DNA from: Diploptera punctata
Taxonomy: Eukaryota > Arthropoda > Insecta > Blattodea > Blaberidae
Length of the DNA: 64,000 nt
Direction of reading: 5' to 3'
Assembly (NCBI GenBank): GCA_030220185.1
Contig: JASPKZ010007283.1
Coordinates: forward strand, 953,501 to 1,017,500
A program made the translations under genes and the position numbers. Shown piece by piece: positions 2,045 through 58,835 of the stretch (position 1 is the first letter of the stretch; each line of letters begins with the position of its first letter). The notes beneath the pieces were generated by a model that made no database searches, was not told the origin of the DNA, and saw nothing but the letters and a program-made list of their open reading frames with translations.

Positions 2045-2380
2045 ATGAAGACATTATTGTGTGCAGTTCTCGGTATTCAATTCTTCGTGCTGGCACAAGT
2101 GAATTTAACTTGTTCAAAATTGATTTACAAGCTCGAAGATACGACAAAACTCATGTCCTGCATCACTAAAATTATGTATCTTCATTTTGCTGAAGGAAGT
2201 ATTGTGTTCATTTCCATAAATGATAGTGTCACACTCCACAGAGATTTCTCAAACATGTTGTTTACTGATGCCATCTGGACAGTTGTAATATCAACTACAG
2301 AGAATTATAGGTCTAATGTAGACATTCAACATGAATATCAAATTCAACATCACGGATATATTGTTTTCCTGACTGCAAAG
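2045..2380 (+). CDS. Ionotropic receptor (IR) gene, exon 1: signal peptide and start of N-terminal domain
   Basis: First coding exon of an insect chemosensory ionotropic receptor, a divergent relative of ionotropic glutamate receptors that forms ligand-gated cation channels in sensory neuron dendrites. The ATG at 2045 is chosen because it opens a typical signal peptide (MKTLLCAVLGIQFFVLAQV); the frame is open further upstream to 1976 but that part is not signal-like. A splice acceptor-like 'tttttcctag' ends at 1988, so an upstream non-coding exon is possible. The exon codes 112 residues and ends in phase 0 at a good donor (AAAG|gtaaga). It joins in frame to 12524. The N-terminal domain is poorly conserved in such IRs; recognition comes from exon 3. 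Membership in a lineage-expanded divergent IR group is inference. Confidence 0.8.
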
Positions 2381-9862: not shown

Positions 9863-9908
<46 letters not shown>

Positions 9909-10019: not shown

Positions 10020-10027
10020 ACCATGTC

Positions 10028-10064
<37 letters not shown>

Positions 10065-10197
10065 CCTACAAACGTTACTGCTATAAAGTAAATACTCTCT
10101 TTAAAAAAATTGCTTACCTGTTATGGTGGCCGCTAGATGGCGTTGGAACGACTTCCCGCTACCTTTAGTGTGAATTGAGAATATAGCCTACATATAT

Positions 10198-10312
10198 AAG
10201 AAAAATGTATGTTTGTGTTGGAATACATTAGTGGCTCAGATGGTTAGAGCGCTAAACGTACAGGGTTTAGAGACTCGGTTAAATCCCGACTCAAGCATTC
10301 ATTTTTCTTTTC
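10198..10312 (+). mobile_element. tRNA-like unit 2 flanked by short inverted repeats
   Basis: Contains gtggctcagatggttagagc (D-arm and A-box) and a B-box ggttaaatccc, with the anticodon stem reduced to ctaaa/tttag around a 9-nt loop. It is bracketed by agaaaaatgtatg and cattcatttttctt, which are reverse complements except at one position. It has a close copy about 297 bp downstream. Confidence 0.65.
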
Positions 10313-10493
10313 ATATCATATTTGCCTTCATTGGCAAAAGTCAAGAAATGGTTATAATATTTAAATATACAAGCGTTACTGCTATAAAGTAAATATTATC
10401 TTTAAAACAATTGCTTACCTGTTATGGTGGCCGCTAGATGTCAGTTGGAACGACTTGCCGCACCTCTTGTGTGAATTGAGAATACTACATATA

Positions 10494-10612
10494 TAAGAAA
10501 AATGTATGTTTGTGTTGGAATACTTGAGTGGCTCAGATGGTTAGAGCGCTAAACGTACAGAGTTTAGAGACTCGGGTTCAAATCCCGACTCAGGCATACA
10601 TTTTTCTTTTGA
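10494..10612 (+). mobile_element. tRNA-like unit 3 flanked by short inverted repeats
   Basis: Near-duplicate of unit 2 with a better B-box (ggttcaaatccc) and a perfect 14-bp bracket (aagaaaaatgtatg / catacatttttctt). The sequence preceding both units (gttactgctataaagtaaat ... ttgcttacctgttatggtgg) is also duplicated (starts 10075 and 10376), so units 2 and 3 are tandem copies of a roughly 300-bp segment. Confidence 0.65.
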
Positions 10613-10625
10613 TATAATATATATA

Positions 10626-11510
10626 CAGGGTGTTTCATAAAGGATGGTGCAAACTTAAATGGTTGAAAGTACACGATAATAGAAGCAACAATGTCCCAAT
10701 AAACATGGGTCCGCAAACGAGCCGTTTGCGAGATAATTACGAATATATGGTTACAAACTGTCACTGACTTCATTGTAAACATCGTCCTAGTTAGTAGAAA
10801 TTTATTTGAATTTAGACTTTAATATTAATTTTTCATCTCATTTAGTTCACATTTCACAGTTCACTTCACTTATGAGTTACCTGTTAAAGGAGATGTTAAA
10901 GTGTCTTCCTTGCATCTGGATGCAATACTGAGCTCGTCTCTGCAATGAATGTCGAATTCTTTCGAAAAACCCTGGATCATTTCTGAATTTTTGACAAGCA
11001 TGTACAACTCCAGTTCTTCAATCGTGTTAACGGGTGTGCTGTACACTTCACTTTTGAGGTGACCCCAGACATAAAAATCCAAAGGATTTAGATCAGGTGA
11101 TCTTGGAGGCCAAGGTACAGATCCTCCTCGACCTATCCATCTTTGGCCGTATCTGCGCGTTAGATGCCGTCTCACAGCAGCGGCAAAATGTGCCGGAGCT
11201 CCATCATTCATGTATCACAAACTCCGACGTTTGTGAAGGGAAACATCCTCAAGCAATCCTGGAAGATGACGCCGCAGAAACCTAAGGTACCTCCGTCCAT
11301 TAAGTTTTCGTGGAAGAATGTGTGGCCCAATGAGATAATCACCTAGTACGATGTTACAAACAATGACGTCAGTGGCGGTTTGTAACTATACATTCGTAAT
11401 TATCTCGCAAACGGCTCGTTTGCGGACCCATGTTTATTGGGACATTGTTGCTTCTATTATCGTGTAATTTCAACCATTTAAGTTTTCGCCATCCTTTATG
11501 AAACACCCTG
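10626..11510 (-). mobile_element. Tc1/mariner-type transposon, internal-deletion derivative with ~141-bp terminal inverted repeats
   Basis: The left end 'cagggtgtttcataaaggat' at 10626 is repeated inverted at 11491-11510, both flanked by TA. The inverted repeats extend about 141 bp (shared words: cccaataaacatgggtccgc, cgagccgtttgcgagataat) with only a few differences. The interior encodes on the - strand (11211-10870) a transposase C-terminal piece, with NDGAPAHF (second catalytic Asp) and SPDLNPLDFYVWG (third catalytic Asp). The N-terminal DNA-binding part is missing, so the 885-bp copy is non-autonomous. It lies in receptor intron 1. Confidence 0.93.
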
Positions 11511-11519
11511 TATATATAT

Positions 11520-11780
11520 ATATATATAGTGTTATTTAGTATGTTGGTGATACTGTTTATTTTATAATATTAAAATAAATACGTGGTATATTAGTCGTCC
11601 TCAAGTAAATTGGATTTCTGTTTAAAACCTCGTCAAGTAATTAAAACCATGTAGGCCTTTCAGAAACATGTTCCACCTTCGGTATGTCAATTTGGTACAG
11701 TGATTTAAAATTAATTTTAGAAGTATTAATTGTTTATTTTATGATAAAATGTTTCATTTTCTTAAGGTATTTTTTTTCAG
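11520..11780. other. AT-rich spacer, nothing recognised
   Basis: Short AT-rich spacer between the mariner copy and a tRNA-derived sequence. No coding or repeat signature that I can name. Confidence 0.5.
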
Positions 11781-11937
11781 AGAGATTAAACCCAATGGGT
11801 ACAACTAGGACACGACACACAACCAGTCCCAAGGTTGAGATTTTTAAAAATCTCTTACCCCGCCGGAAATCGAACTTGGATCGCCGGAGTGGAAGGTAGG
11901 GACTCTACCGACCACGCCACAGCGACGGACTTTTCTT
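11780..11937 (-). mobile_element. tRNA-derived SINE-like sequence, family 3
   Basis: The reverse strand reads gtccgtcgctgtggcgtggt then cggtagag (A-box like), and a B-box-like aagttcgatttcc, followed by a non-tRNA body (ggtaagagatttttaaaaat). This is the usual tRNA-head plus body layout of a SINE. No second copy is seen in the window. Confidence 0.6.
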
Positions 11938-12005
11938 AAGGTTATAGCTAATGGTTCTATAATGTTCTAGGTTAAGTGCCTTCGATGCCCGTGGCACCAT
12001 GGGGG

Positions 12006-12006
<1 letters not shown>

Positions 12007-12057
<51 letters not shown>

Positions 12058-12079
12058 AATATATATATATATATATATA
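12007..12079. repeat. Two (TA)n tracts split by 'ataaat'
   Basis: A long TA tract, a short interruption and a second TA tract, then 'catacacacat'. Simple repeat inside receptor intron 1. Confidence 0.93.
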
Positions 12080-12365
12080 CATACACACATTTTTGGCGAA
12101 CATATACTCACGTATTACTGACTGGAGACACGTTAAACATCCTAGAAACGATATAACCTAAATGTTAAACATTAATTAGATGATGAAGTTACACATTCAT
12201 TTTTTTCTCTCTCTTGAAAATGCGTTTGTTTTTTAGGACTTAACATATATTTCAAAGACAAATGAAGGTGTCTCAATTTGCAGACAAACAGACGAAATGT
12301 CAGCGCTGTTAGACGCGTCTGGTACTAATTTCTGTTAGATTACTAAGGCCAAATTGTTGTAGAAG

Positions 12366-12463
12366 GTTTAGTTCGGTGTAAAAATTCTGACCTCATCACG
12401 ATTCGAACCTCTGACCATCCGGCTAATAGTATATTGCCTTAACCAGCTATACTATGACCCCAA
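12366..12463 (-). pseudogene. tRNA-like relic
   Basis: The reverse strand contains ggggtcatagtatagctggt and taaggc (D-arm/A-box-like) and aggttcgaatcg (B-box-like), 70-75 nt apart. Stems are incomplete, so a tRNA pseudogene or SINE head is likely. It lies about 60 bp upstream of receptor exon 2. Confidence 0.5.
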
Positions 12464-12523
12464 ATTAAAGAAAGATGACGATATGCATCGATTAAAAGAT
12501 TGAATAATGCAATACATTTGCAG

Positions 12524-12992
12524 GAAGAAGAAGTTCAAGAGAACTTGGTGACGCAACTGGAAGAAATAAAGGAGAATGGAATGAGCGTTGGTGCTAAGTA
12601 CCTGATGATATTAACATCATTTAGTTTAAACAACACAGGAGCGGCGCAGTTAGTAGCAGAGGAACTCTGGTACAACTACAGGATATTACATTTTGTAATC
12701 TTAATAAATGAGGAATTATACTCGTGGACATCTTACCTGAAACAGGACATTTGCGAAGAGGCACGTGTTGAAAAAATAGGTTCATGCGACCTACAATCTG
12801 CAGAAGAGTTATACCCGGACAAAGTGCCTAATAATCTAAATGGATGTCCAATCAGAGTAACACCTATTGAGACGTCACCACATTTAGTGGTAGAGGATAA
12901 GGATGGTAACTCTGCAGGAATGGAAGTGGCGTACGTCAACTTCATTCTGCTCGCGCTTAATGCTACTCTGGTGTACCAAGACATGCCAACAG
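12524..12992 (+). CDS. Ionotropic receptor gene, exon 2: end of N-terminal domain and first part of ligand-binding lobe S1
   Basis: Starts after the acceptor 'acatttgcag' and ends at CCAACAG|gtaact. It continues exon 1 in phase 0 and leaves in phase 1. The translation runs from an acidic segment (EEEVQENLVTQLEEIKENG) to CPIRVTPIETSPHLVVED and GMEVAYVNFILLALNATL. The second half has the layout of IR lobe S1: a strand ending in a short loop, then 'G.e...v..la..ln' helix. The N-terminal half is the variable extracellular domain. The frame is uninterrupted, so this exon shows no decay. Role: outer ligand-binding domain of the receptor at the dendritic membrane (family knowledge). Confidence 0.85.
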
Positions 12993-19977: not shown

Positions 19978-22902
19978 CTACAAATAATTAATAGGAGTCT
20001 GAAATGGTTTCAACAGTTCTTTGGAATATTTTCCAATTTCTTTTCTAGTGTCTATTTCTCTTAGCTCATATGTGGTATCATTAAAATTTTTAAATATTTC
20101 ATAGGGACCTTTATACAATAGGTTCATCCTATGATATTGTTTCTTTAAAGCATTGGATAATGAAATATCCCTTATGAGAACTTTGTCTCCAACTTTGGGA
20201 TTCCACTTCCTTTTATGTCTTTTAACCTTATTGTTGCGCTTTTCTGCGCGACATTCTAACCTTTCAATAACTCTTTTACATATTTCCTCGGATGTCTCCA
20301 GGATTTGACTTTTATCAATGATAGGTAATGGTAAATTAGCAATTAACCTGTCAGGTTGTTTACCTGTCATTAGGAATATGGGTGCTTCCCCAGTATTGAC
20401 ATTAATTGAATGATTCATAACATTCTCTATAACACTGATATGTTTAAACCAGTCAGAATGTTTATGATGGGTCAAAATTCTTAAACTTGTAGTAATTTCC
20501 CTATTAACTCTCTCACAGGGATTACTTTTTGGGTGATATTTACTACAATGGTACAATTTAATTCCTATCGCAGTAAGTTTATCTTTAAACTTAGGACTTG
20601 AGAACACTGAAGCATTATCACTAAGTAGTGCATCAATAGGTCCATAATTAGGTAAATAATCTCTCACAATTTTACCTAGGCAAGCTCTGCTATTTACACT
20701 TCTTAATGGATATATTTTTACAAATTTTGAGAAGACATCAGATAATACAAGAATATGCTTGTAACCAAATTGTGTAGTAGGCATTTCTCCATGAGTATCC
20801 ATTACTACTAAGCTATTTACTTTGTTCCTTAATATGTTTTGTGGAACTATATCATATTTTACGTTCATACATTTGGCTTTTTGACAAGTTATGCATGAAG
20901 AAGTAAACTTTCTCAACTTTTTATCTAAATGTTTAACATAAAAAAATTCACTTATGTTGAGAGCTAATTTTTCACAACCTGCATGATTTAAGCCGACATG
21001 AAAAGTTCTAAATAGTGGAAATTCCATATTATTAGGAATTATAACTTTCCATTTTTTTACATTTCTCCCATGTAATTTGTAAAGAATGTCATCCTTTATA
21101 CCGATTTTCTTATTACAATCAATTCCATTTTTGTCATCATTATTTATATCTCTCGCACTATACTTCAATCGTTGTAACTCTATATCAGATTTTTGATGCT
21201 CAACAATGTTTTTCATCAACAATGAAAATCCTTTGTCTCTATACAGTTTTACATTAAACATTACTACTTCGTGTTTAGGAGTATGTACAGTTTCAGGTAT
21301 TTTCCCAACACTTTTCAATCTAGACAGGAGGTCAGCAAACACATTCTGTTCTCCTTCTATGTGTTTTATTTCAATATCATAGGAAATTATTTCCATGATC
21401 ATCCTACTCAGTTTATTATTGGATAATCTACATTTACTTATAAAACTTAGTGAAATGTGGTCACTATGAACAATAACTTTGTTTTTATACACATAAATTC
21501 TAAATTTATTATGTAAAAATGCTGTATAGGGCCGAACTTTGGGGTCTAGTTCTATCTGCCAAAATGAAGAAGTTAAATCAATAGAACTAATAAATCTACC
21601 AGTTTTCATATTTGCTATAGATGCTTCAATTGTCTCGGGCCTATAATTATCCCGGACAGTGAAAGAATTAGTCCTACGACTGTCTAAACACAGGCGAATT
21701 TTGCCATTAGGTTTTAACACCCAGCAAATATGGTTGGCGTAAGGAGAATCAGATTTCTGTATTATTCCTTGCATTAACATGTCATCTATCATTCGATCTG
21801 CCTGCTCTCTGATGGCAATAGGGATGGGTCTACTTTTAATATTTATAGGTGGATGTTCCATCACTTTAAAGGAATATTTAAAACAGTTGCACAATCCCGG
21901 CTTCGAAGAAAAAGAACTCTTATTTTTCATTAAGATGTCATACAACATGCCTTTCTGTTCATTGTTTATGCCATGAGTGTCTTTAACTTTTTCCTTTATC
22001 ATTTCACAGATGTCTTTTTCAAGTTCGTCACTCACACAATATAATAGAGGAATTTCATCATACTCAGTATTGCAAGAGACACATTCTAAATCACAACATT
22101 TACATGCGACATAATCGTCAGCACAACCATTTTCATTATTAAGGCTTTCTTCGCCCTCGACACTTTTGTCGGAAGTACAACTAACTGCAATATTATCTTG
22201 CATTTGGCATCCACGGCCATTCACCAATTCACTCTCCTCATGAACAACAATATTCTCTATAAAAATGTGTTCTTCAGCAATGTCACTCTCCTTCTTACTT
22301 AGATTCTTATTCTCCTCATATTCATTATCAAATGGGATGACGACTCTCACATTATCTTCATTGTACAAGGAAATATTCTTACACTCAAAATTTATTATGG
22401 CATTATATTGCTCCAACAGGTCGCAGCCTATTAACATATCACAAGACAAGTATGGAGAAATTAAACATATCGCACTGAAGTAATATCCTCCGATATGTAA
22501 ATCTAGAAGGCACTGTAGCTTAATTGGCAGTTTCTTCTTGCCTATCGCAAGAGTACAATACACTCCACATATTCTTACAGTCATTATCTTATTCCCTTTG
22601 TTGACTAAGAAATTATAAAATTTCTGATCTATTGTTGTGTTTGAGCAGCCACTATCCGCTATGCAAGTAACATCATTGTTAAAAATATTTACTTTAATTT
22701 TGGGTGGTCGTCCTATGACATTTAATTCTTTATTAGTAACAGGCATAGTATCCTGATTCTTAGAAACATTCAAATGATTATTCAATATTATGTTATCTCG
22801 CTGTCTTGAGGTACATAACTTACTATCTCCTCTCATATTTGCTGGTACAATTTCTAAATTTTGAAACCTATCAAAGCATCTATTTTGGACCCCTAAGTTC
22901 AT
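19978..22902 (-). CDS. pol: Gypsy pol polyprotein with in-frame RT/RNase H deletion
   Basis: 974 codons from the first ATG; expression is probably by frameshift from gag, so the true N-terminus lies upstream. Order: retropepsin with CIADSGCSNTT (residues about 80-90) and later DMLIGCDLL; RT fingers and start of palm with KPNGKIRLCLDSRRTN and FISSIDLTSSFWQIELD (motif A Asp); then an abrupt join at 'FLHNKF|RIYVYKNKVIVHSDH', where RT motifs B to E including YxDD and most of RNase H are absent; end of RNase H (FADLLSR). Integrase follows: zinc region HVGLNHAG..CITCQ, catalytic VVMDTHGEM, LLSDNASVF and NPCERVNRE, and a GPY-type tail (YKGPYEIF). The frame is open throughout despite the loss. Integrase and protease look intact, the RT cannot be active. 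Confidence 0.93.
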   Translation of the reverse strand: MNLGVQNRCFDRFQNLEIVPANMRGDSKLCTSRQRDNIILNNHLNVSKNQDTMPVTNKELNVIGRPPKIKVNIFNNDVTCIADSGCSNTTIDQKFYNFLVNKGNKIMTVRICGVYCTLAIGKKKLPIKLQCLLDLHIGGYYFSAICLISPYLSCDMLIGCDLLEQYNAIINFECKNISLYNEDNVRVVIPFDNEYEENKNLSKKESDIAEEHIFIENIVVHEESELVNGRGCQMQDNIAVSCTSDKSVEGEESLNNENGCADDYVACKCCDLECVSCNTEYDEIPLLYCVSDELEKDICEMIKEKVKDTHGINNEQKGMLYDILMKNKSSFSSKPGLCNCFKYSFKVMEHPPINIKSRPIPIAIREQADRMIDDMLMQGIIQKSDSPYANHICWVLKPNGKIRLCLDSRRTNSFTVRDNYRPETIEASIANMKTGRFISSIDLTSSFWQIELDPKVRPYTAFLHNKFRIYVYKNKVIVHSDHISLSFISKCRLSNNKLSRMIMEIISYDIEIKHIEGEQNVFADLLSRLKSVGKIPETVHTPKHEVVMFNVKLYRDKGFSLLMKNIVEHQKSDIELQRLKYSARDINNDDKNGIDCNKKIGIKDDILYKLHGRNVKKWKVIIPNNMEFPLFRTFHVGLNHAGCEKLALNISEFFYVKHLDKKLRKFTSSCITCQKAKCMNVKYDIVPQNILRNKVNSLVVMDTHGEMPTTQFGYKHILVLSDVFSKFVKIYPLRSVNSRACLGKIVRDYLPNYGPIDALLSDNASVFSSPKFKDKLTAIGIKLYHCSKYHPKSNPCERVNREITTSLRILTHHKHSDWFKHISVIENVMNHSINVNTGEAPIFLMTGKQPDRLIANLPLPIIDKSQILETSEEICKRVIERLECRAEKRNNKVKRHKRKWNPKVGDKVLIRDISLSNALKKQYHRMNLLYKGPYEIFKNFNDTTYELREIDTRKEIGKYSKELLKPFQTPINYL

Positions 22903-22953
22903 AACGATTGAGGTACATTGCGGAGTCTTTAATGTACCTTCTATGCGTTTAAA
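22888..22953 (-). promoter_or_regulatory. -1 ribosomal frameshift signal between gag and pol
   Basis: On the - strand the heptamer T TTA AAC (22953-22947) lies in the gag frame two codons before the gag stop (GCA TAG). A 7-nt spacer follows, then a perfect 9-bp stem AGGTACATT (22939-22931) / AATGTACCT (22919-22911) with an 11-nt loop. The loop word GACTCC (22927-22922) can pair with GGGGTC (22893-22888), giving an H-type pseudoknot with one G-U pair. After a one-base backward slip the frame reads KRIEGTLKTPQCTSIV and enters pol without a stop. Heptamer, spacing and structure match the known type of -1 signal; function is inferred. Confidence 0.9.
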
Positions 22954-24944
22954 GCATGAGGTATCCTGTGATTTACTTCGTGGTCATTTTCATTACTAGG
23001 TATATCTTGACTTTGGTTGTGAATAGTTACAGAGTCTATTCTATTTTGCTCTGTCCTATCACTAGTTTCATTAATTTGACAATTTTGTTGTCGTTGGAAA
23101 TACCCTTTATTTTCATTACCATAGGCATTCCTTCTTCTTTTACCTCTACAGGGAGAAGTCCAATACCTATTTCTATTTTCTCCTACTCTGTTAACATCCA
23201 TATAATTAATTTGTCTGTCATTCCTATTTTCATTACGTTTGAACCATCCATTCTGGCTATTGTTACTATAATTATTAGTCATCCTATTTTTATTTGGGCT
23301 GTTTCTATTTTGAACAAACCTATTATTATTGTTGCCCTGTTTGAAACTTCTTTCTCTATTCTCATTATGATATTCATCATTTCTTTTAGTTACAAAATTA
23401 CCTTTCTTATTATAGGGCTCTGCCCCTTCCCCAAATAAATTTCTTTTACTACATTTATCTACTTCTCTTTTATTCTCTAGTAGAGCTAACAACTCTAACA
23501 TTTCAGAAACATTTTGTGGTCTGGCTACTATCAAATGATATCTAATCTCATCTGGGAAGTGATGCGATAACATAGAAATTAAAGTTCTCTCATCTATTGG
23601 AGGCTGTAACAATGATGCCATTTTTGCCTTCTCCAAGAAATAATTAAGATAACCTTGTTTACCATTGTTGGAGAATTTTCCACTAGTTAGGTCTAACCTT
23701 AGTTTGTTTTGTCTTTCTGGTCCCCAGTAGTAACCTAAGAAAGCATTTTTAAATGTTTGATAAGTCATTGAATCATGGCAAGCTATCTTAAACCAAGACT
23801 CTGCATTGTCTTTTAAACTTTTTCTTATGAAGAACATTCTGAACTTGTCTTCTATTCCTTTGATTTCGAAGTATTCTTCAATTTCCCTAATGAAATCAGT
23901 AGGGCTTTGGCCTACAGTATCACCAAAATTAGGTAAGTTAATTTCCCCTAAAAGATTAGCAGGAATTTTACATACATTTTTACTACTACTACTAGAAGGA
24001 GGATCATTATTAACATTACTAGAATGTCCTGACATAACCTCAATCTCCTTTTCACTAGTTTTTGACACATATTTGTTTTCAAGTTCAACAATCTTAGTTA
24101 TCCATCCTTCAACTTGTTCTTTTATAATAATTACTTCATTTGTTATCTTTGATTGAAGTTCTTCATTACCTAAGATAACACTTTCTTCGGAAATTTTTAG
24201 TCTATCTTCGACTTTAGTTCCTAATTCTTCGATTTTATCTTGGCAACTTTGCCTTACCTCAATCAAAGATGTTTCTATTTGATTATGAGTTTCATCAATC
24301 TTTTCATTACATTTTTCTATCTCATTTTTACAAATATCTATTTTCTTTTCACAGTCTTTAGCTACATTTACTATTCTCTGTTCCAGTTTAGAATTGTTTT
24401 GTTTGCATTCTAACCTAATGCTTTCTAACTTTTGATCTAGTTTTAAGTTATTTTCTTTAATTTCTTTACTAAGATTGGAAATATTTGCATCAATTTTATT
24501 GCTAAGGTTAGTTACATTAGCTTCTAATTTACTACTGAGAATTGAATTGTCATTCCTAATTTCTTTTAATTCATCACTGTTCTTTTCTAATTTATTACTG
24601 AGATTTGAATTGTCATTCCTAATTTCCTTTAATTCATCACTATTCTTTTCTAATTTGTTACTGAGATTTGAAATATTATTACTGAGATTTGAATTGTCAT
24701 TCCTAATTTCTTTTAATTCTGCACTATTCTTTTCCAGTTTATTATTAATATCAGAAATGTTATTTATTAATAATGCTACCCAAGAAGGTGTATCATTAGT
24801 TTGATTATTTTCATTGTTACACAAAATTAAATTTTCTTGGCCTTCACTAATTTGTTCGTTTTCAATATTAACAGTTTTACAAGTTATATTTTCGTTATTG
24901 GCCATTGTTGGGTATTTTAATATTTTCTTATTTCTTAAAAGCAT
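22941..24944 (-). CDS. gag: Gypsy gag polyprotein
   Basis: 667 codons, intact. The N-terminal third is a long coiled coil rich in Asn, Lys, Glu and Leu with three copies of a 21-residue unit of the type KLEKNSDELKEIRNDNSNLS, then further heptads to about residue 285. A capsid-like helical region follows (YFEIKGIEDKFRMFFIRKSL, then AESWFKIACHDSMTYQTFKN and a Q.KLR..L segment). The C-terminus is basic and rich in Asn and Arg, with no CCHC knuckle that I can see, so RNA binding probably relies on basic residues. Structural protein of the intracellular particle. Confidence 0.9.
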   Translation of the reverse strand: MLLRNKKILKYPTMANNENITCKTVNIENEQISEGQENLILCNNENNQTNDTPSWVALLINNISDINNKLEKNSAELKEIRNDNSNLSNNISNLSNKLEKNSDELKEIRNDNSNLSNKLEKNSDELKEIRNDNSILSSKLEANVTNLSNKIDANISNLSKEIKENNLKLDQKLESIRLECKQNNSKLEQRIVNVAKDCEKKIDICKNEIEKCNEKIDETHNQIETSLIEVRQSCQDKIEELGTKVEDRLKISEESVILGNEELQSKITNEVIIIKEQVEGWITKIVELENKYVSKTSEKEIEVMSGHSSNVNNDPPSSSSSKNVCKIPANLLGEINLPNFGDTVGQSPTDFIREIEEYFEIKGIEDKFRMFFIRKSLKDNAESWFKIACHDSMTYQTFKNAFLGYYWGPERQNKLRLDLTSGKFSNNGKQGYLNYFLEKAKMASLLQPPIDERTLISMLSHHFPDEIRYHLIVARPQNVSEMLELLALLENKREVDKCSKRNLFGEGAEPYNKKGNFVTKRNDEYHNENRERSFKQGNNNNRFVQNRNSPNKNRMTNNYSNNSQNGWFKRNENRNDRQINYMDVNRVGENRNRYWTSPCRGKRRRNAYGNENKGYFQRQQNCQINETSDRTEQNRIDSVTIHNQSQDIPSNENDHEVNHRIPHALNA

Positions 24945-25064
24945 TAATTGTTATTATCACTAATTCACTTTTCACATATAAATTTTAACTGTACTCACTT
25001 TTGAAGATTTTTTTTACTTTTACTTTCCTCATTCTCGTACAGGTCCCTGGTTCGATTCCCATTC

Positions 25065-31530: not shown

Positions 31531-31739
31531 ATAAAAACTTCTAAAGCCAGAATATTTCCGCCACCAAACCTAATTCTTACCTAATTATTACACTATATTT
31601 TTTAACCACAAGAAATTTTGGACACAAGTCTTTCCATCCGCTGAGATCCGAAGTGATCACAATCTTGTAGCAAGCCTATTCAGATTTAACATCCAATGAA
31701 GAAACAATCAAAAACAGAACGACAAGGACACATAAAAAA

Positions 31740-33765
31740 CAAATGAGAAATTCAAAGTAGAGTTATTTATTGATGATTCAACAAAACTACTCTATCAGAA
31801 CAGATTAAACAACAAGTTATCAGAGATGGAAAACTGTGAAGAAATTGTTGAAGATAAATGGAACATGCTCAAAACTGCTATAACTGATGCAGCAAAAGAA
31901 TCATTAGGTACAAGAAAATTCTGAACCGAAACATGTCCGACGTTGGACTCTTTGGTTTAACGAAGAGATAAAGGAACTGATTGAAAACAAGAGAAAACTA
32001 TACAGGAGATATTTACAGACATGGAATGAAAATGATTACGATGAATTCAAAAAAATTAGAAACTAAGTAGTGTCAGCAATTAGGAAATCAAAACAAGAAT
32101 TTTGGGACAAATACTCTCATAAACTGGAATTTGATTTCTATGGTATGCAGAAACAAATATGGAGGTTCATCAGGAACCAGAGAAAATATATAAACGAATA
32201 TGTAAATTTATGTAATATATCAACAGAAGAATGGGAAAACTACTTTAAAGAAATTTACTCAGAACGGGAAAACACTGAGAATCCACATCTAGAGAAAACT
32301 ACAAATAAAGATACATTTGAGATAAGCAAGAACGAATTTGAAACAAGTAAAAAAATTGAGAAACAGAAAATCAGCGGGTATAGATAACATCCAGAATAAA
32401 TTAATTAAATACGGAGAAGAAAAATTACATGAAGAAATTTACAATTTATTTAACACCATATGCCCAAATGATTGGAAAAAAGTATTACAATCCCAATTTT
32501 GAAAAAGGGAGATAAAAACCAACCAGAAAATTACAGAGGCATCAATCTATTATGCACAGCACTGAAACTCTTCACTAAAATTATACCAGATCATTTATCG
32601 AATACATTACCACTACTAGATGAACAACAAAGATTTCGTAAAGGAAGATCATGCACAGATGCCATTTTTATATTAAAACAGACTGCAGAAAAAGCTATTG
32701 ATTTTAACATCCCAGTCTTCTTAAGTTTTGTGGATCTGGAAAAAGCATTTGATCGGGTAAGATAAATGGCATGCTCAACATATTAGAAAACAAGAATGTA
32801 TCTAAAAACCTCATCGCAATCATCAAATGAATTTATTCAGGAAACAGTACAACTATCAAATATGGAAATAGTAAATCTAAAGAAATTTTAGTCCAGCAAG
32901 GAATATGACAAGGAGTCTCATTAAATCCCATATTGTTCACACTAATAATGGATGATATCATTAAAGAACTAAAAGTTGAAGTTAGAAAAGGAATTAAAAT
33001 AGGTAACAAAGAGCTGAACATAATAAACTATGCTGATCATACAGTTCTAATTGCACAAAGTGAAGATGATTTACAAATGCTATTACACAAATTTAGAATC
33101 ATTGCAGCAAAATATAACATGTCTCAACAAATAAAACCAAATCAATGGCAATATCCAAGGACCCACGACGTGTTAAATTAGAAATAGAAGGGAAAAATAT
33201 AGAACAGGTCATGAAATTCAAATATTTAGGAATAGAAATTAATAGCAGCAACAGAATAACGGTATAACAGATGAAATACTCGATCAGGCAAATAATGCAA
33301 ACATAATATCGGGATGTTTAAACAATACTGTTTAGAAAAACAAAAAAATAAGTAAGAACTTACAAATCTGTCATAAGACCAGTTCTAACATATGGTTGTG
33401 AATGCCGAACAGAAACTCAAAAAACAAAACAAATCAATGAAACAACTGAGATGAAAGTTTTAAGGAAAATCGTAGGAAAATCGCTGAGAGAGAAAATTCC
33501 CAGCTCTGTTATTAGAAAGGAATGTGAAATTGAACCTATAAACCTCTGGATAAATGGTAGAAGACTAAATTGGAACGATCACATAGAAAGAATGGAGAAC
33601 AGTAGATTAGTGAATTAAGTACGTGACTGGACATCTCAACAGAAAAGGCGTTTAGGACGACCACAACTACAATGGAAGGACGTCACCATACCCCGGACTT
33701 GTAGTGAATGAACACGCAACAGGCTGCCAGCTTTCATGCGCAGAAGAAGAAGAAGAAGAATTTTA
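31740..33765 (+). mobile_element. LINE family B copy 2, decayed
   Basis: Broken frames in the order linker (32070-32387), fingers (ITIPILKKGDKNQPENYRGI, 32472 onward), palm motif A (SFVDLEKAFDRV), motif B remnant, and motif C reading YADHTVLIAQSEDDL near 33030, where the second catalytic Asp has become His. The thumb and the post-RT segment (about 33180-33700) end in a GAAGAAGAA tail at 33744-33761. Dead copy in the same orientation as the receptor gene, about 220 bp upstream of exon 3. Confidence 0.87.
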
Positions 33766-33985: not shown

Positions 33986-34092
33986 GAGAAGCGCTGGAAA
34001 GTCGTCTACAAGCACTTGGGGATCTCATTGAAGGCAAAACAGATATAACATACGGAGGTTATCCAATCCATCCTGTCGGTATAACTGTAGCT
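33986..34092 (+). CDS. Ionotropic receptor gene, exon 3 (first part): end of lobe S1, cut by LINE insertion
   Basis: Follows the acceptor 'tctcattttcag' and completes the split Gly codon from exon 2 (phase 1). The peptide EALESRLQALGDLIEGKTDI and TYGGYPIHPVGITVA is the standard end of IR lobe S1: a helix, then 'l..g..Di.fGg.p'. The next codon in the intact gene would be GAT at 35285; the run is interrupted after 34092 by a LINE fragment that begins 'catcatcatcatcat'. The family pattern continues without loss on the far side. Confidence 0.88.
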
Positions 34093-35284
34093 CATCATCA
34101 TCATCATAGTACATTCACGAATTTAGGCCATTTGTTGACCTGTTTCGGCCTCAAGAGAAACACCATCCAGAAGTCTTTTGAGTGGACGTCCTGGTCTTCT
34201 TCTTCCTGCAGGTTAACATTAGTTTGGGTATTCTGTGATCTTCCATTCGATGAACATGTTGTATCCATCTTGACTTATAATCAGAAATTTTGTTTTCTAA
34301 AGATTCCATGTGTAATTCTTCTAAGATGTCTTCATTTTTTTTGTGATCTAGTAGTGTGTATCCTGCAGTCCTCCGAAGATATCTCATTTCAGCAGATCTA
34401 AGTCTCTGTATATCCTTCTGTTTCAATGTCCATACTTCGCTACCATACAAAAGAGTTGGAAGAGCCAGTGTTTTGTACACTTTCAGTCTTGAATGCTTTT
34501 GGACTAACTGTGGCTTGAAGATAGAATTTATTAACCCTAAAATTCTTAAAAATTTAGATATTTTTGCATTTACATCCTTTTCTTCTTCATATGAGATATT
34601 GCATCCTAGATATGTAAAATTATTCACCTGCTCCAAAATTTTATTGTCCAGTACAATTTTACTTCTGACAGGATCTACACCTTGAAATGCCATAATTTTT
34701 GTTTTTTCTGTAGATATCTTTAATCCATATTCTTCTGTAATTTTGTTAAGTTCATACAGACCTTTCTGTAGATTATCTTCGGAATTTGCTATTATTATTT
34801 GGTCATCTGCAAACAATAGGGTGTTTAATTTTCTATTTTCTGATATTCTTATTCCAAATTTATATGTTTTGTTCCAGCAACATATTACTTCATTGATATA
34901 AATTGCAAAGAGTGTTGGGGATAGGGGGCAGCCTTGTCTCACACCACGATTTATAATTCCTTCTTCAGAAAATCTGTTATTTAATTTAATCTTTATGGTG
35001 TTGTCTTTGTAAATATTTTGTATGTTCTGCCGAAGTAAATTTGGTATATTTCTGTCTTCCAATATATTTAAGAGTTTTGATCTCTTGACTGTGTCGAATG
35101 CTTTTTCAAAATCTATGAAAGCAAAATGTGTTTCTAAGTTGAATTCTCTTCTTTTTTCAAGCAATAGTTTAACAGAAAATGCTGAATCAATACAAGATCG
35201 TCCTTTCCTAAATCCATTTTGACATTCCATAAGGAATTTTTCACTGAAACTTTTCAATTTTCCATTTAAAATGTCTGCATAGCT
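34093..35284 (-). mobile_element. LINE family B copy 3: young, 5'-truncated insertion inside receptor exon 3
   Basis: The insert is bordered by the word tagct on both sides (34088-34092 and 35280-35284). It is antisense to the receptor, with its 3' tail of ATGATG repeats at the left end. Length is 1192 bp including one target copy, not a multiple of three. The RT frame is open from the truncation point to its natural stop, unlike all other LINE copies in the window, so the insertion is recent. Confidence 0.95.
34151..35257 (-). CDS. LINE-B reverse transcriptase, C-terminal 368 residues, uninterrupted
   Basis: Covers RT from just before motif A to the end: GFRKGRSCIDSAFSVK, FAFIDFEKAFDTVKRSKL (motif A), GVRQGCPLSPTLFAIYINEV (motif B), NTLLFADDQIIIANSEDNLQ (motif C, FADD intact), NNFTYLGCNISYEEEKDV (thumb), then LYGSEVWTLKQKDIQRLRSA and RRTAGYTLLDHKKNEDIL. 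No endonuclease or fingers: the copy starts inside the RT and cannot move by itself. The clean frame dates the event as recent relative to the decayed copies at 4020, 31740 and 43135. Confidence 0.93.
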   Translation of the reverse strand: MKSFSEKFLMECQNGFRKGRSCIDSAFSVKLLLEKRREFNLETHFAFIDFEKAFDTVKRSKLLNILEDRNIPNLLRQNIQNIYKDNTIKIKLNNRFSEEGIINRGVRQGCPLSPTLFAIYINEVICCWNKTYKFGIRISENRKLNTLLFADDQIIIANSEDNLQKGLYELNKITEEYGLKISTEKTKIMAFQGVDPVRSKIVLDNKILEQVNNFTYLGCNISYEEEKDVNAKISKFLRILGLINSIFKPQLVQKHSRLKVYKTLALPTLLYGSEVWTLKQKDIQRLRSAEMRYLRRTAGYTLLDHKKNEDILEELHMESLENKISDYKSRWIQHVHRMEDHRIPKLMLTCRKKKTRTSTQKTSGWCFS

Positions 35285-36247
35285 GATCCTACAATATCAT
35301 ACTTGCCAGACCTGTTAAAATGGTACGTTCCATGCGGAACTCCGTTCTCTAGAATGCAAAAAGTAGCTGAAATATTCACAACTTCTGTCTGGCTTATCAT
35401 AATATTAACATTCATTGTAAGTGTGTTCGTCTTTAAGATATCCTCTCGAGCCGATCCCTTGCTCTACCGACATTTCACAGGCTGCATTTACGCCGTTTGG
35501 TCTCTCACTCTTGGAGTATCCGTCCCTCAAATTCCCAAAACATTCATAATCAGGTCTGTATTTGCTTTTTTAATCTGGTACTCTTTCGCAATCAGCACCA
35601 TTTTCCAGACTTACTTTACAAGTATTTTAGTAGATCCTGGAGTTACCAATCAAATTCAAACATCTGAACAACTTTTTACATCCATTTTAGAATATCGATA
35701 CGAAGATGAACTTGATAATTTCATGAAAGTATCCATTCCAGAATATTATGCATTGATTCCTCTGAAGCGTGTCAAATGTACTCATAAAAACAGATGTTTA
35801 TTGGATTACTTGAAAAGTCAGAACGTAGCTACAGTTAGTTTTGATTTACACTCTAAGTTTTTCTTAATCGCAGGCCTTCCTGTGGGTACTCCAGAGCCCC
35901 AACTGTGTTCTCTGAGCGATGATATCTATACTATGTATTTTACAATGTACTTGGAGAAAAGAAACCCCCTAGTGAAGACATTGAATGTGTTTATAAGGCG
36001 AGTGACAGAGGCTGGTTTGTTGGATAAGTTGTTTCGTATTTACAAAGAAACATGGCGTTACTTGAACTGGTCTGACGGTGATGCTACACAACTGGATTCT
36101 ATCTATCAAGTAAATCAGAACATTGTCGAATATTTTGTTTTTTCATTGCAATATTTACACTTGCCGTTTTTTATTCTATTTATTGGATATGGGACAAGTT
36201 TTGTGACTTTATTGACAGAAATATTGCATTTTTATATAAAAAAGTAA
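35285..36247 (+). CDS. Ionotropic receptor gene, exon 3 (second part): channel domain, lobe S2, M3 and stop
   Basis: Resumes with DPTISYLPDLLKWYVPCG, the conserved end of S1. M1 is EIFTTSVWLIIILTFIVSVF (about 35375-35435), the pore region follows (YAVWSLTLGVSVPQIP), M2 is VFAFLIWYSFAISTIFQTYF, continuing into TSILVDPG, S2 contains NQIQTSEQLFTSI through to LDKLFRIYKETWRYLNW, and M3 is YFVFSLQYLHLPFFILFIGY, continuing to the stop at 36245-36247. This order is diagnostic of insect ionotropic receptors. No stop or frameshift, so the coding sequence was under constraint until recently. With the insert removed the whole protein would be 624 residues, normal for this family. Ligand unknown; it would act with a co-receptor such as IR25a or IR76b (family knowledge). 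Confidence 0.95.
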   Translation, partial: DPTISYLPDLLKWYVPCGTPFSRMQKVAEIFTTSVWLIIILTFIVSVFVFKISSRADPLLYRHFTGCIYAVWSLTLGVSVPQIPKTFIIRSVFAFLIWYSFAISTIFQTYFTSILVDPGVTNQIQTSEQLFTSILEYRYEDELDNFMKVSIPEYYALIPLKRVKCTHKNRCLLDYLKSQNVATVSFDLHSKFFLIAGLPVGTPEPQLCSLSDDIYTMYFTMYLEKRNPLVKTLNVFIRRVTEAGLLDKLFRIYKETWRYLNWSDGDATQLDSIYQVNQNIVEYFVFSLQYLHLPFFILFIGYGTSFVTLLTEILHFYIKK

Positions 36248-36640
36248 GTCAATATTTTCGATTCAATTCTAAACATATGTATTCACAAATAAGGTCCATA
36301 ATACAGGAATTGTGTAAACAAACAAAATTCTTCAACAAGTCGAATTGATATTCAGATATTACTGGTTTTAATTATGTGTGTCAAGTACTTTGCAAGGAAA
36401 CAAAAAATTATGGCCATTAGAACAATTTTGAAATGTTCGATTCAAAGTAAATCTCTACTTCTAATCATCGAATTTTACTAATTTACGGAATATGTCTTTC
36501 TTTGAAAATTAAATCACGTATACCAAGTTTCGTTGCGAGAAAACATAAATTATACCCGGTAGAGCATTGAAAAAGTTAAAAAAGTCACATTTGGATAAAT
36601 TTATAATTCATACGCTATCATATGGAATCTGATGCTTGAT
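36248..36640. other. 3' flank of the receptor gene
   Basis: AT-rich. No canonical AATAAA immediately downstream; 'aataag' occurs near 36288. I do not assign a poly(A) site. Confidence 0.4.
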
Positions 36641-37010
36641 GGCTTATACGATGCAATAGATATTACGTTTCTCTTGTGATGCATTGTAAGCTAACTCTCG
36701 CCAGACTTGTGAACAGCATGTTAGATGTGATTGTAGCTTCAGCTTCTTCGATCCTCATTTGAAAATGACGTTGGTCGCGTAGTAGGGGATGAACTTAAAA
36801 ACTAACCTTTATGTGATGTCGTTAAAAAATCACATGGGGTTAAGTCTGGGGATTTAGGAGGCAGTTTTACAAAAGCCTTGTCAAGAAGTCCTGTTTGTTC
36901 ATCCCAACTTGCAGGAAGTACCCGATTAAGATATTTGCGAACCTGACAGTGATAGTGAGTCTCTGCTCCATCTTGCTGGAACGGAAAGTTGTGTGGAAGG
37001 ACTTTTGAAC
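36640..37010 (-). pseudogene. Tc1/mariner-type transposase relic (C-terminal catalytic region)
   Basis: The - strand reads FQQDGAETHYHCQVRKYLNR (second catalytic Asp context, FQQDGAPPHY), then VLPASWDEQTG and PPKSPDLTPCDFF (third catalytic Asp context). Frame breaks follow. A further 200-300 bp upstream on the same strand may belong to the same copy. No terminal repeats located. Confidence 0.8.
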
Positions 37011-53271: not shown

Positions 53272-53298
53272 AGGTTAACCTGTAAAACACAGGTTAAC
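53272..53298. other. Perfect hairpin spanning the ORF1 stop codon (copy 1)
   Basis: Arms ggttaacctgt and acaggttaacc, 11 bp each and perfectly complementary, around a 5-nt loop. On the - strand the 3' arm contains the TAA stop of ORF1. An identical hairpin lies at 54502-54528. Confidence 0.9.
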
Positions 53299-54264
53299 CA
53301 GTCGGCTCATGAAGATGAAACGCTCCATGGGACTAGACAGTTCAGCCAATAAAGGCTGAACATCCCGGAGAATTTCCTCCCCACGAGCACTTAAGCTACC
53401 TATTTGCAATTGCTGGCCCTTAACTTTAGCAGTGCTATTCTCTTGAGTTGTTCTGGAAGCAGTACCAGTCTGAAAAGCTTGGGTGAAGGAAACTCTTGGA
53501 TCGACCTTCACAGAAGTGAAGGTCTTTCTTTGAGTTGTAGTTACAGTTGGATTTGAAATACGATCACTTGTGGATGGTTTCTCTTTTGGATTAGGGATGG
53601 GTTTAGCTACCCTGCTATAAGCTCCAAGGGCCGCCTTGAAAGCAGGGCAGCCTCTATAGGACGCCGGGTGACCGGACTCCTTGCAATTTGCACATTTTAG
53701 CAAATTTGTGTCTCTCCGCGCTTCGGCCTTTAGGGTACAGTCCTTGTGCCCGTGAGGCCCAGCGCAGATAACACAGCGAGGAGCCCGATTACAGGCGGGA
53801 AAGGTATGATTAAATGACTGGCACCGGTAACACTGCTTAAGCCCAGCCCTGGGTCTATATGGTTCTATGGCCACAACAGTGTACAAGAGACGCTTTAAAT
53901 CATAAATTTCCAACGCTTTACTATTGCGTTCTAGTTCTAATATATAAATGGGAAGAGGTATAGCCAAATTATTTTCCGTTTTAGTGATCTGTTTTACAGT
54001 TTTAACTGGGAAACCCAACGCGAGGATTTCCTCTTTAATTTCATCTGGGTCTACAGTTGCAGGCAGTCTCTTTAACACCACTTTCAGAGGAAGATCCCTC
54101 TTCAGTTGGAAAGTATAGTATTCCCTATTCAGGAAAGGAAAATACTCCTTCAACTTGAAGAAATCTTCCAGTGATCGTGCATAGTAGCGTATTCCTTCAG
54201 GAATACTGACACACTTTAGTTGGTCGCCAATTAGTGATTTCAACTCTTTATTTATTCGGAACAA
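53275..54264 (-). pseudogene. Duplicated ORF1 C-terminal part (329 codons, no own start)
   Basis: Matches the last 329 residues of the ORF1 at 54505-55935 with scattered changes in the N-terminal half (EYFPFLNREYYTFQLKRDL against EYFKSLNREYYTYLLKRDL; KQITKTENN against KQIKKTEND) and near-identity in the C-terminal half. It keeps the pre-C2HC domain and all zinc knuckles (CYRCQSFNHTFPAC, CVICAGPHGHKDC, CANCKESGHPASYRGCP). It begins at the duplication joint, inside the GHGNLFRINKE segment, so it lacks the N-terminus. Confidence 0.9.
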
Positions 54265-54501
54265 ATTCCCATGACCAATAACTGTAATTGGTGGGGGTCT
54301 TTGCTCCGTGACAATGGTGACATTGCATTTTACCTAACAGGTCTATACCAGAATAATAGTGCAAAACCTCTATACTTGTAAGAAGGCATCATAAACTACG
54401 CCGCCGGCAAGCAGAGAGTCCGAAAGCCGGACAGCGTAGTGTGACCCACACTTCTCAAAGCAAGTGATCTCGCACTATTATGTGGATGGTCTCTCCTTTT
54501 G

Positions 54502-54528
54502 AGGTTAACCTGTAAAACACAGGTTAAC
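54502..54528. other. Perfect hairpin spanning the ORF1 stop codon (copy 2)
   Basis: Same 11-bp arms and loop as at 53272-53298, again overlapping the TAA of the ORF1 frame above it. It encodes the last residues VNLCFTG. Confidence 0.9.
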
Positions 54529-55935
54529 CAGTCGGCTCATGAAGATGAAACGCTCCATGGGACTAGACAATTCAGCCAATAAAGGCTGAACATCCCGGAG
54601 AATTTCCTCCCCACGAGCACTTAAGCTACCTATTTGCAATTGCTGGCCCTTAACTTTAGCAGTGCTATTCTCTTGAGTTGTTCTGGAAGCAGTACCAGTC
54701 TGAAAAGCTTGGGTGAAGGAAACTCTTGGATCGACCTTCACAGAAGTGAAGGTCTTTCTTTGAGTTGTAGTTACAGTTGGATTTGAAATACGATCACTTG
54801 TGGATGGTTTCTCTTTTGGATTAGGGATGGGTTTAGCTACCCTGCTATAAGCTCCAAGGGCCGCCTTGAAAGCAGGGCAGCCTCTATAGGACGCCGGGTG
54901 ACCGGACTCCTTGCAGTTAGCACATTTAAGCAAAGTTGTGTCTCTCCGCGCTTCGGCCTTTAGGGTACAGTCCTTGTGCCCGTGAGGCCCAGCGCAGATA
55001 ACACAGCGAGGAGCCCGATTACAAGCAGGGAAAGTATGATTGAAAGACTGGCACCGGTAACACTGCTTAAGTCCAGCCCTAGGTCTATATGGCTCTATGG
55101 CTACAACAGTGTATAAGAGACGCTTTAGATCATAAATTTCCAACGCTTTACTATTGCGTTCTAGTTCCAATATGTAGATAGGAAGGGGTATGGCCAAATC
55201 ATTTTCGGTTTTTTTAATCTGTTTTACATCTTTAACAGGGAAACCCAACGCGAGGATTTCCTCTTTAATTTCATCTGGGTCTACAGTTGCAGGCAGTCTC
55301 TTTAACACCACCTTCAAAGGAAGATCCCTCTTCAGTAGATAAGTATAGTATTCCCTATTTAGGGACTTGAAATACTCCTTTAACTTGAAGAAATCTTCCA
55401 ATGAACGTGCATAGTAGCGTATTCCTTCAGGAATACTGACACACTTTAGTTGGTCGCCAATTAGTGATTTCAACTCTTTATTTATTCGGAACAAATTCCC
55501 ATGACCAATAACTGTAATTGGTGGGGGTCTTTGCTCCGATTGGACAGTATTACCTGAAGGAGTAGCAGTAGGCGTGGCCATAGTAGGACCAGTAGCTTGA
55601 GGAGGGACCATCTCTGAGGATGTTCCTGCAGTGGAATTTGGAATATCAGTTAAAACTGAAAATTTATTGTTGGTAGGCACTGCTGGAACCTCAACTCGTG
55701 ATTCCTGCGACTCTATGGATCGATTATCTGGATGTATAGGTTCAAATACATTAGTGTGTTTGCCCAGTAGTATGGGTTCTTTTGGTTTGAAATAATCAAC
55801 TTTTGTTTTCTTAACGACTAAAGTCGGTACTTTTTCTTTTTTCTTTTTGTTTTTCCGTTTAGATTTTCCACTAGCAGTTGACTGGTCGTCAGTGAGCATT
55901 TGATCCTCAGTGGCCATCTGCTCACTGGTGTCCAT
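54505..55935 (-). CDS. Non-LTR element ORF1: zinc-knuckle RNA-binding protein, intact
   Basis: 476 codons, uninterrupted. N-terminus is acidic then basic (KSKRKNKKKKEKVPTLVVKK, a likely nuclear signal), then a Pro/Thr-rich linker, 'PPPITVIGHGNLFRINKELK', a pre-C2HC domain (PLKVVLKRLPATVDPDEIKE ... PLPIYILELERN ... VAIEPYRPR) and CCHC-type knuckles CYRCQSFNHTFPAC, CVICAGPHGHKDC and CANCKESGHPASYRGCP. The C-terminus is SPMERFIFMSRLVNLCFTG. Packages element RNA in family members. The frame is open some codons upstream of this ATG, so the start could be earlier. Intact ORF1 with no ORF2 is the striking feature. Confidence 0.92.
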   Translation of the reverse strand: MDTSEQMATEDQMLTDDQSTASGKSKRKNKKKKEKVPTLVVKKTKVDYFKPKEPILLGKHTNVFEPIHPDNRSIESQESRVEVPAVPTNNKFSVLTDIPNSTAGTSSEMVPPQATGPTMATPTATPSGNTVQSEQRPPPITVIGHGNLFRINKELKSLIGDQLKCVSIPEGIRYYARSLEDFFKLKEYFKSLNREYYTYLLKRDLPLKVVLKRLPATVDPDEIKEEILALGFPVKDVKQIKKTENDLAIPLPIYILELERNSKALEIYDLKRLLYTVVAIEPYRPRAGLKQCYRCQSFNHTFPACNRAPRCVICAGPHGHKDCTLKAEARRDTTLLKCANCKESGHPASYRGCPAFKAALGAYSRVAKPIPNPKEKPSTSDRISNPTVTTTQRKTFTSVKVDPRVSFTQAFQTGTASRTTQENSTAKVKGQQLQIGSLSARGEEILRDVQPLLAELSSPMERFIFMSRLVNLCFTG

Positions 55936-55972
55936 ATCACTGCTAGTTGAAGGAATTTCTTCTTCTACATTG

Positions 55973-56383
55973 CTATATGCTTTGGGAAATGAGGAGGAAT
56001 AGAAGAGCGCAGTAAGTGCGAATCTCTAATAAATCTCCTTTCAATTCGTTTAGCATAGCTTCAAACGTTCGTTGTCCTGGTTCGTTATCTTTTATCAATT
56101 TATTTAATCGATCCAAAGCAGCAGTCGTGAAATCACGAGCTTCTTCAGACCTCTCATAGTTCTGGAAAGTACCCATGAAATTTATGAGTAACAAGAAGGT
56201 TCCTCTAAGAGTGGACAGCAATTCTTTTAATTCGGGTTTTTTGTCGTATCCATATTTGTGGACGAATGCTTCAAATTTGTTCGCGGAGTCTTCCCAGAGT
56301 ATGAGAGGTCCGACATCCTCACTTTCTGGATCCATAGACCCGTAAGACTTTGGCATAGTAGCCATTATGCTTGGTAATACCAA
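55973..56383 (-). CDS. N-terminal frame upstream of ORF1 in copy J1
   Basis: 136 codons ending just before ORF1 in a different (+1) frame. It contains LILWEDSANKFEAFVHKYGY, LRGTFLLLINFMGTFQNYE and RSEEARDFTTAALDRLNKLI. A clearly related frame precedes ORF1 in copy J2 (61533-61210: EIWEIATNQFEAYLKKQNF, QGTFWIISSYLQTYPEFE, RSDTALDMTRNYSDAL). The conserved pattern W..a.N.FEA...K...GTF..i...q..ErS..A.D.T shows this is a real domain. The last 20 or so residues here probably lie past a frameshift. Confidence 0.75.
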   Translation of the reverse strand: MVLPSIMATMPKSYGSMDPESEDVGPLILWEDSANKFEAFVHKYGYDKKPELKELLSTLRGTFLLLINFMGTFQNYERSEEARDFTTAALDRLNKLIKDNEPGQRTFEAMLNELKGDLLEIRTYCALLFLLISQSI

Positions 56384-57181: not shown

Positions 57182-58546
57182 TCAAAGTCTAGCAAATATG
57201 TTCCGGTGAATTGCACGTCGCTGTATTAGATGCCCTATATTGCGAACAATTGGATTTGTATGATTTTGGATTAGTTGGAACATTTTGTCCACACGTTCTT
57301 CAATCGTAGTCGCAATATACGGCATCTGTGCTTGGTTGTGAAGCTCTGCGATCCTCGTGTACATTGGTGCCGAAAAAATAATTTTGAAACATTTATTCTG
57401 AATTATTTGAACTTTCTTTTTGTGACATCCAGCGAGGATGCTCCAGGCTTCACAACCATACAGCAACATGCTTCGGATCACAGCTGTGTAAAGAATCAGC
57501 TTGATCCGAGAGGATAGTGTAGGTGACTTGAAAAATGGATAAAGTAAGGCAATTGCAGCATTTGATTTATGAATAAGATGCCGAATATGAATTTTGAACG
57601 TAAGCTTGGAATCCAGATGGATTCCGAGATACTTGACTGAAGGCTCTGGTCGGAAGTGATGAGTTCCCAAGGTGAGTTGGATTTGGTTTGGTCTACTAGT
57701 CTTTGAAAACAAAACAGCTTTTGTTTTGTTAACATTGAGCTTAATGTTCCATAGACCAAACCAGGAATGGTAGGAATTTAAGGCGGACTGGATTATTGGG
57801 ACGCGTCGAGGTAATAGACGGAATGGAGCCTGAAGATACAAACAAGTATCATCAGCAAAGGATGCTAGGTTAATACGGTTAAAATTAGGGATGTCTGACA
57901 CATAGAGAGTGTACAGAATCGGTGAGAGGACTGCACCTTGAGGAACTCCCGCCAAGAGTGGCTTGCAGTCAGAATTATACCCACTAACCGACACATAAAA
58001 GTGTCGGTTAGTTAGGTATTTAGCTATAATTTTAATTAAATCAGCCGAAATTTGAAATTTTATTAATTTGTATAATAGTCCATTTATCCAAGTCGTATCG
58101 AATGCCTTCTCAATATCGAGGAACACTGCCAAAGTACTTCTCTTGTTGTTGAATCCCGTAACAACTTGGTCAACCAGTCGAGCAAGTTGGAGCGGAGTAC
58201 TATGTGTTTTTCTAAAGCCAAATTGGTGAGTAGGAATAAGGTTTCTCTCTACCACCTCTCTTTTTAGTCTTGCCAAAATGAGTTTCTCCATAACTTTCCC
58301 CAGCACGGGTAGAAGACTGATTGGCCTTAAGTTGTCCGGGTTGGTTGGATCTTTACCAGGCTTTGGTATAGCTACAACTTTGGCTTTTTTCCAGACCTCA
58401 GGGAAGTACTGGTACTTGAGACAAAATTTAGCTATTTGAAGGAATAGGAGAAGGGCTTTTAGCGGTAAATATTTTACCGCCAAATATGGTATCCGGTCAT
58501 GACCGGGGGCACGTTTGGAAGGTAGATTATGGATTACGGCTTTCAA
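57182..58546 (-). CDS. Copy J2 ORF2, reverse transcriptase portion (454 codons)
   Basis: Open frame with KVVAIPKPGKDPTNPDNLRP, FGFRKTHSTPLQLARLVDQV, LAVFLDIEKAFDTTWINGLL (motif A), LLAGVPQGAVLSPILYTLYV (motif B), INLASFADDTCLYLQAP (motif C, FADD intact), VKYLGIHLDSKLTF (thumb) and a C-terminal region with LYGCEAWSILAGC. This portion is uninterrupted, but it lies in a different frame from the endonuclease (59880-59368) and the joining segment (59186-58836), so no full ORF2 protein can be made. Confidence 0.92.
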   Translation of the reverse strand: MKAVIHNLPSKRAPGHDRIPYLAVKYLPLKALLLFLQIAKFCLKYQYFPEVWKKAKVVAIPKPGKDPTNPDNLRPISLLPVLGKVMEKLILARLKREVVERNLIPTHQFGFRKTHSTPLQLARLVDQVVTGFNNKRSTLAVFLDIEKAFDTTWINGLLYKLIKFQISADLIKIIAKYLTNRHFYVSVSGYNSDCKPLLAGVPQGAVLSPILYTLYVSDIPNFNRINLASFADDTCLYLQAPFRLLPRRVPIIQSALNSYHSWFGLWNIKLNVNKTKAVLFSKTSRPNQIQLTLGTHHFRPEPSVKYLGIHLDSKLTFKIHIRHLIHKSNAAIALLYPFFKSPTLSSRIKLILYTAVIRSMLLYGCEAWSILAGCHKKKVQIIQNKCFKIIFSAPMYTRIAELHNQAQMPYIATTIEERVDKMFQLIQNHTNPIVRNIGHLIQRRAIHRNIFARL

Positions 58547-58835
58547 TTCTGAAAGCCGTATATCAGGAAGGGTGAGAGGGATAGGTCTCTCAAGAAAAGT
58601 ACTTACTGTATGGTATACTTCAGCTTCATGAGCCGGTGTAGTGAGCTCATGTGGGCGAAACCTTGATTCTAGGTGTTTAGAGAGAGCTTGGGCTTTCTCC
58701 CGTGGGAGGTAAGCCCAATCTCCGTCATAAAAATAGCTGATGGAGGAGGCGGAGCTCGACTCCTTCTAATTCTTTTTAATATCTCCCACGGAGGAGTTTT
58801 TAGCATCTGTGAAACGCTGAAGGGAAGAATCCCAT

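Follow-up and report, generated by a model that had tools for sequence, protein, structure and literature searches.

A young LINE copy in the third coding exon of an otherwise open, divergent ionotropic receptor gene of Diploptera punctata

The Receptor Gene and Its Interrupted Exon

The window, the whole 64,000-nucleotide stretch of Diploptera punctata DNA analyzed here, carries a receptor gene whose three coding exons are separated by introns of ~10 kb (2381-12523) and ~21 kb (12993-33985), and whose third exon (33986-36247) is interrupted by an insert at 34093-35284 (Table 1). As the original prediction had stated, reading in the receptor frame is cut off after 34092 and can be taken up again at 35285, and without the insert the gene comprises 625 codons, the last being the stop, with splice phases that agree (0/0 and 1/1). 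The receptor exons are likewise all uninterrupted, with 0 stops and 0 frameshifts in 1872 coding bases. Based on these open 1872 bases and on assumed indel rates, neutral decay of the receptor is capped at ~0.9-1.8% divergence. Searching with the joined protein yielded 26 relatives, and a profile built from them after removal of the window's own sequence recognizes each of the four receptor pieces, which are correctly ordered and share a strand; the next rows have E values of at least 0.096. When the 26 relatives were used in tblastn at E ≤ 0.01, matches were confined to exon 2 and both parts of exon 3.

Table 1. Coordinates of the receptor gene, the insert and the associated features in the window.
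Feature	Position	Strand	Remarks
Receptor exon 1	2045..2380	+	112 codons, open frame; end phase 0; donor AAG/GTAAGA; profile without own sequence E 4.3e-9
Receptor exon 2	12524..12992	+	Start phase 0, end phase 1; profile E 1e-29
Receptor exon 3, pre-insert part	33986..34092	+	End of S1 ligand-binding segment (position relative to GluD1); profile E 1.8e-5
Left TAGCT copy	34088..34092		Target repeat
5'-truncated LINE copy	34093..35281	-	Matches to sister copies reach 35281
(ATG)n tail at LINE 3' end	34093..34107	-	Same tail in sister copies
RT reading frame (RVT_1)	34151..35279	-	PF00078, E 2e-35; C-terminus frameshifted relative to sister copies
8-base loss in insert	~34212..34213	-	Bases present in 27/27 sister copies (26/27 in pairwise BLAST alignments)
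First receptor-frame stop if insert is unspliced	34399..34401	+	Predicted
Private substitution	34427		Insert position 335; differs from 27/27 sister copies
Right TAGCT copy	35280..35284		First two bases also fit element sequence
Receptor exon 3, post-insert part	35285..36247	+	Remaining ligand-binding domain, channel, stop; profile E 8.9e-117

The 26 relatives of the joined protein (E ≤ 0.001, identity 23-41%) include Ionotropic receptors 254 and 255 of Blattella germanica as well as proteins named as Diploptera punctata and Cryptotermes secundus; the source code jgi is attached to 19 of them. The Diploptera punctata protein (P0014) has 100% identity over 595 aa to locus L047 in the genome that contains the window, in keeping with that species as the very probable source. 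A profile of the joined protein with these relatives gave 214 PDB matches at E ≤ 0.01, the 60 listed all being glutamate receptors, with GluD1 as the top match (E 1.1e-9, profile positions 221-639). With glutamate-receptor homology over both the ligand-binding and channel segments, and with relatives named as ionotropic receptors (IRs), the protein falls among the insect IRs. It is a divergent member of the family, as Pfam Lig_chan reaches only 12.5 bits (E 0.13) on the joined protein, under the cut-off of 30.8, and has no match in the exon 3 pieces taken singly; the precomputed PF00060 is present in 18 of the 26 relatives and absent in 8. No receptor relatives were confirmed in viral and prokaryote contigs.

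A search of the genome with the receptor scored 71 of 639 candidate rows. Three of these are the gene itself; the other 68 reach at most 40% identity, and 7 of them contain internal stops. Among the best-matching non-self paralogue rows, five stay open over 608-817 aa, in contrast to the split receptor with its large introns. The receptor departs from the others at 7 of 59 columns that they conserve (by share, 22 relatives depart less often and 4 more often), and on account of these columns some mild relaxation of the receptor before the insertion is possible.

Both introns hold further elements. Intron 1 contains a tRNA-Gly-like and a tRNA-Cys-like sequence (9937-10008 and 10521-10597, + strand), which may be genes or tRNA-derived repeats. 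In intron 2, two long open frames on the - strand (19981-24950) resemble by eye the gag and pol of an LTR element, and the pol-like frame seems to be without the middle of its RT.

The Inserted Element

The insert has an RT domain belonging to a multi-copy family, the 3' end of that family with its tail, and a truncated 5' end, and is thus a LINE insertion. With 40 of 936 candidates scored, the family is present at no fewer than 39 further places in the genome, whose main rows are 97-100% identical to the insert; one of the 39 has a short second row at 94%. Sister-copy comparisons refer to 27 of these 39 places (L002-L028). Among the 27, 14 extend beyond the end of the insert and 13 end earlier, so 5' truncation is common in this family. 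A longer sister copy consists of a single 962-aa frame with endonuclease and RT domains. Compared with database RTs, the RT of the insert has an identity of at most 63% among the best 120 of 570. The element is putatively RTE-like; it resembles RTE-like non-LTR retrotransposons in its endonuclease and RT within one frame (in the sister copy), its trinucleotide tail and its frequent 5' truncation.

Other LINE-related sequence is found in the window. Directly upstream of the broken exon, in intron 2, lies an older, decayed LINE copy (31736-33618, + strand). A repeat at 800-1000 (- strand) has a last 60 bases and (ATG)n tail resembling the 3' end of the insert (83%), and an unrelated head that is itself repeated in the genome; of the 45 non-self rows obtained with 40 of 2005 candidates scored, 2 contain both head and tail (1-194 of 201), and the repeat may be a SINE borrowing a LINE tail. 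On the - strand, two near-identical open frames lie next to each other (53278-54333 and 54508-56025) and close to an RT frame (57185-58765), and by eye the arrangement looks as if part of a LINE had been duplicated. A search with the RT at 57188-58765 gave identities of no more than 59% among the best 120 of 733 matches.

The Join and the Target Repeat

The break falls between A304 and D305, just ahead of the conserved aspartate of S1 and N-terminal to the channel. The joined receptor aligns without a gap over the join (residues -12 to +15) in all 26 database relatives, cockroach and termite proteins included, and in 24 of 27 paralogues of the same genome, the remaining 3 having a one-residue gap; the claim that the frame resumes where the IR family pattern continues is thereby confirmed. 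A fusion of two different genes is not favored, given the same order and strand of the pieces, the matching phases, and the correlation between the identities of the two halves to the 26 relatives (Spearman 0.73, a weak test).

TAGCT had been described as flanking the insert on both sides, and both copies are present; two of the five bases are nonetheless shared with the element, since in sister copies extending beyond this point the TA of the right-hand copy belongs to the element itself. Since this TA may reflect microhomology, the strict target duplication measures 3 to 5 bases. In the window, two randomly chosen ends match over at least five bases with a frequency of 0.0016. Clear abutting repeats (11, 13 and 14 bases) accompany 3 of the 13 truncated sister copies, another 3 are situated in simple repeats, and the remaining 7 have no clear repeat; the shortness of the direct repeat at the receptor relative to the 11, 13 and 14 bases in these sister copies counts against the explanation preferred here. 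Reasoning from the sequence, zero duplicated bases would give the restored protein an extra alanine, a case disfavored by the ungapped join in every one of the relatives; one extra residue near the join occurs in 2 of the 27 paralogues.

Age of the Insertion

Compared with the 27 sister copies, the insert has one private substitution in ~1.19 kb (~0.08% private divergence) and a private 8-base deletion. The sister copies are themselves often identical, with 114 of 351 pairs showing no substitution and a median of 0.1% and maximum of 1.3% per site (n = 27), which together with the few private changes argues that the insert is young. The original prediction also held the event to be recent but based this in part on an uninterrupted RT frame. 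The frame is indeed open from stop to stop; its C-terminus, however, has been shifted by the private 8-base loss, and it is therefore unusable as proof of age, so that recency is carried by the sister copies instead. With an insect mutation rate near 3e-9 per site per generation, the private divergence would correspond to some 3e5 generations since insertion (95% Poisson upper limit, about 1.6 million generations), figures that serve only as a rough guide because the private change may predate the insertion in the source copy or be a copying error.

Alternative Explanations and the Predicted Product

If the insert is not spliced out, the predicted product contains 304 native and 102 foreign residues before a stop, and the channel is absent. 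As the stop precedes the channel, the broken allele is most likely null. This prediction depends on the insert being retained in the transcript, and the LINE could instead lie within a normal intron of the receptor, the apparent exon break being an overlooked splice boundary. A weak GT-AG pair does surround the insert (34079 to 35282), and its use would preserve the frame at the cost of 4 residues. For the six frame-keeping GT-AG pairs formed by donors within 34040-34140 and acceptors within 35241-35340, donor plus acceptor scores from consensus splice matrices nevertheless reach no more than 1.94, compared to 10.98 and 15.83 for the two real introns, leaving the insert without usable GT-AG ends for in-frame removal under these matrices. 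A 4-residue shortfall at this site is seen in 0 of 26 relatives and 0 of 27 paralogues, and the ends of the insert fit a LINE tail and a truncation point. A native intron is accordingly rejected on splice scores and the conserved spacing at the join, and is regarded as extremely improbable.

Partial rescue at the RNA level would follow if exon 2 were spliced to an acceptor located at the insert's end or beyond it, which would yield a shorter in-frame receptor. Joining to 35283 or 35310 keeps the frame (589 or 580 aa), and the acceptor at 35309 scores 3.42, close to the genuine acceptor of exon 2 (3.77). Such splicing would trim the end of the S1 lobe by 35-44 residues, and would have to compete with the acceptor of exon 3 itself, which is far stronger (10.97); the acceptor at 35282 is weak (0.35). 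Rescue of this kind is judged very unlikely. There is a similarly slim chance that an intron or exon-skipping event is in the making, with a shortened receptor of altered ligand lobe as the outcome instead of a null; the idea comes from the two introns that the gene already has in a clade that is probably largely intronless and acquires odd introns, and from the in-frame joining of exon 2 past the LINE. Introners and other TE-borne introns (PMC9860276) likewise involve a TE within a coding exon, but the cockroach insert is without strong splice sites at its ends.

The many near-identical copies of the LINE can mislead assemblers, and the insert could be an error in an assembly join or be carried by one haplotype only. 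A search with 35285-36247, in which all 4 candidates were scored, found no second copy in the assembly: besides the self match at 100% it gave three short stretches (66-75 bases, 76-80% identity), so that no second haplotype or recent duplicate of this segment is apparent there; in a search with 35285-37000, only the self match spans the whole exon part (40 of 955 candidates scored, repeats dominating). A random misjoin would not be expected to produce the private changes of the insert, its exact tail, or ends that fit the frame and bear a short target repeat, although these features do not bear against presence of the insert on a single haplotype. Taken together, this pair of possibilities is given little credence.

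The insertion of a LINE copy into exon 3 of an open, divergent IR gene, leaving an allele that is most likely null, is thus favored with high confidence, and the earlier proposal that a LINE recently entered a coding exon of a single receptor gene that is otherwise open is well supported. In the proposed history, the transcript of a recently active LINE encoding endonuclease and RT would have been reverse-transcribed at a nick in receptor exon 3, and the new copy, truncated at its 5' end, would have been joined through short microhomology, resulting in a duplication of 3-5 bases. The receptor would have been open before this event, with too little time since for decay. Its transcript would now run into the antisense LINE and stop ahead of the channel, most likely yielding a null.

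Context in Cockroach Receptors and Significance

In the German cockroach, 393 of 897 IR genes (43.8%) were counted as pseudogenes (Robertson et al. 2018, PMC6175461); according to that study, single mutations dominate among its pseudogenes, and large insertions are named in its methods among the obvious pseudogenizing mutations. Words beginning with "transpos" have 0 occurrences in its main text. The receptor described here resembles those chemoreceptor pseudogenes in belonging to a cockroach IR family and in having a single disabling event. It differs in that this event is identified as a young LINE copy, and in having two introns (10 and 21 kb) and no scored non-self row above 40% identity. 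If the names IR254 and IR255 follow the numbering of PMC6175461, the relatives suggest that the receptor belongs to the clade BgerIr196-950, which that paper presents as largely intronless, and its two very large introns were perhaps gained within that clade. Literature searches returned no paper joining chemoreceptor pseudogenes, transposon insertion and cockroach, none, among those listed, on the Diploptera genome, and, judged by titles, nothing on retrotransposon insertion in pseudogenized insect ionotropic receptors.

Given the proportion of IR pseudogenes reported for the German cockroach (PMC6175461), the locus represents a clean but ordinary case of gene loss. Its value is that of a precisely placed and roughly datable gene death, in a receptor lineage without a close paralogue among the rows scored, where the breaker is a single member of a LINE family that is present many times over in near-identical form. 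If the site is not polymorphic, it would be another example of receptor turnover in cockroaches; if it is still polymorphic, open and broken alleles in the same animals would provide a direct test of what the receptor senses.
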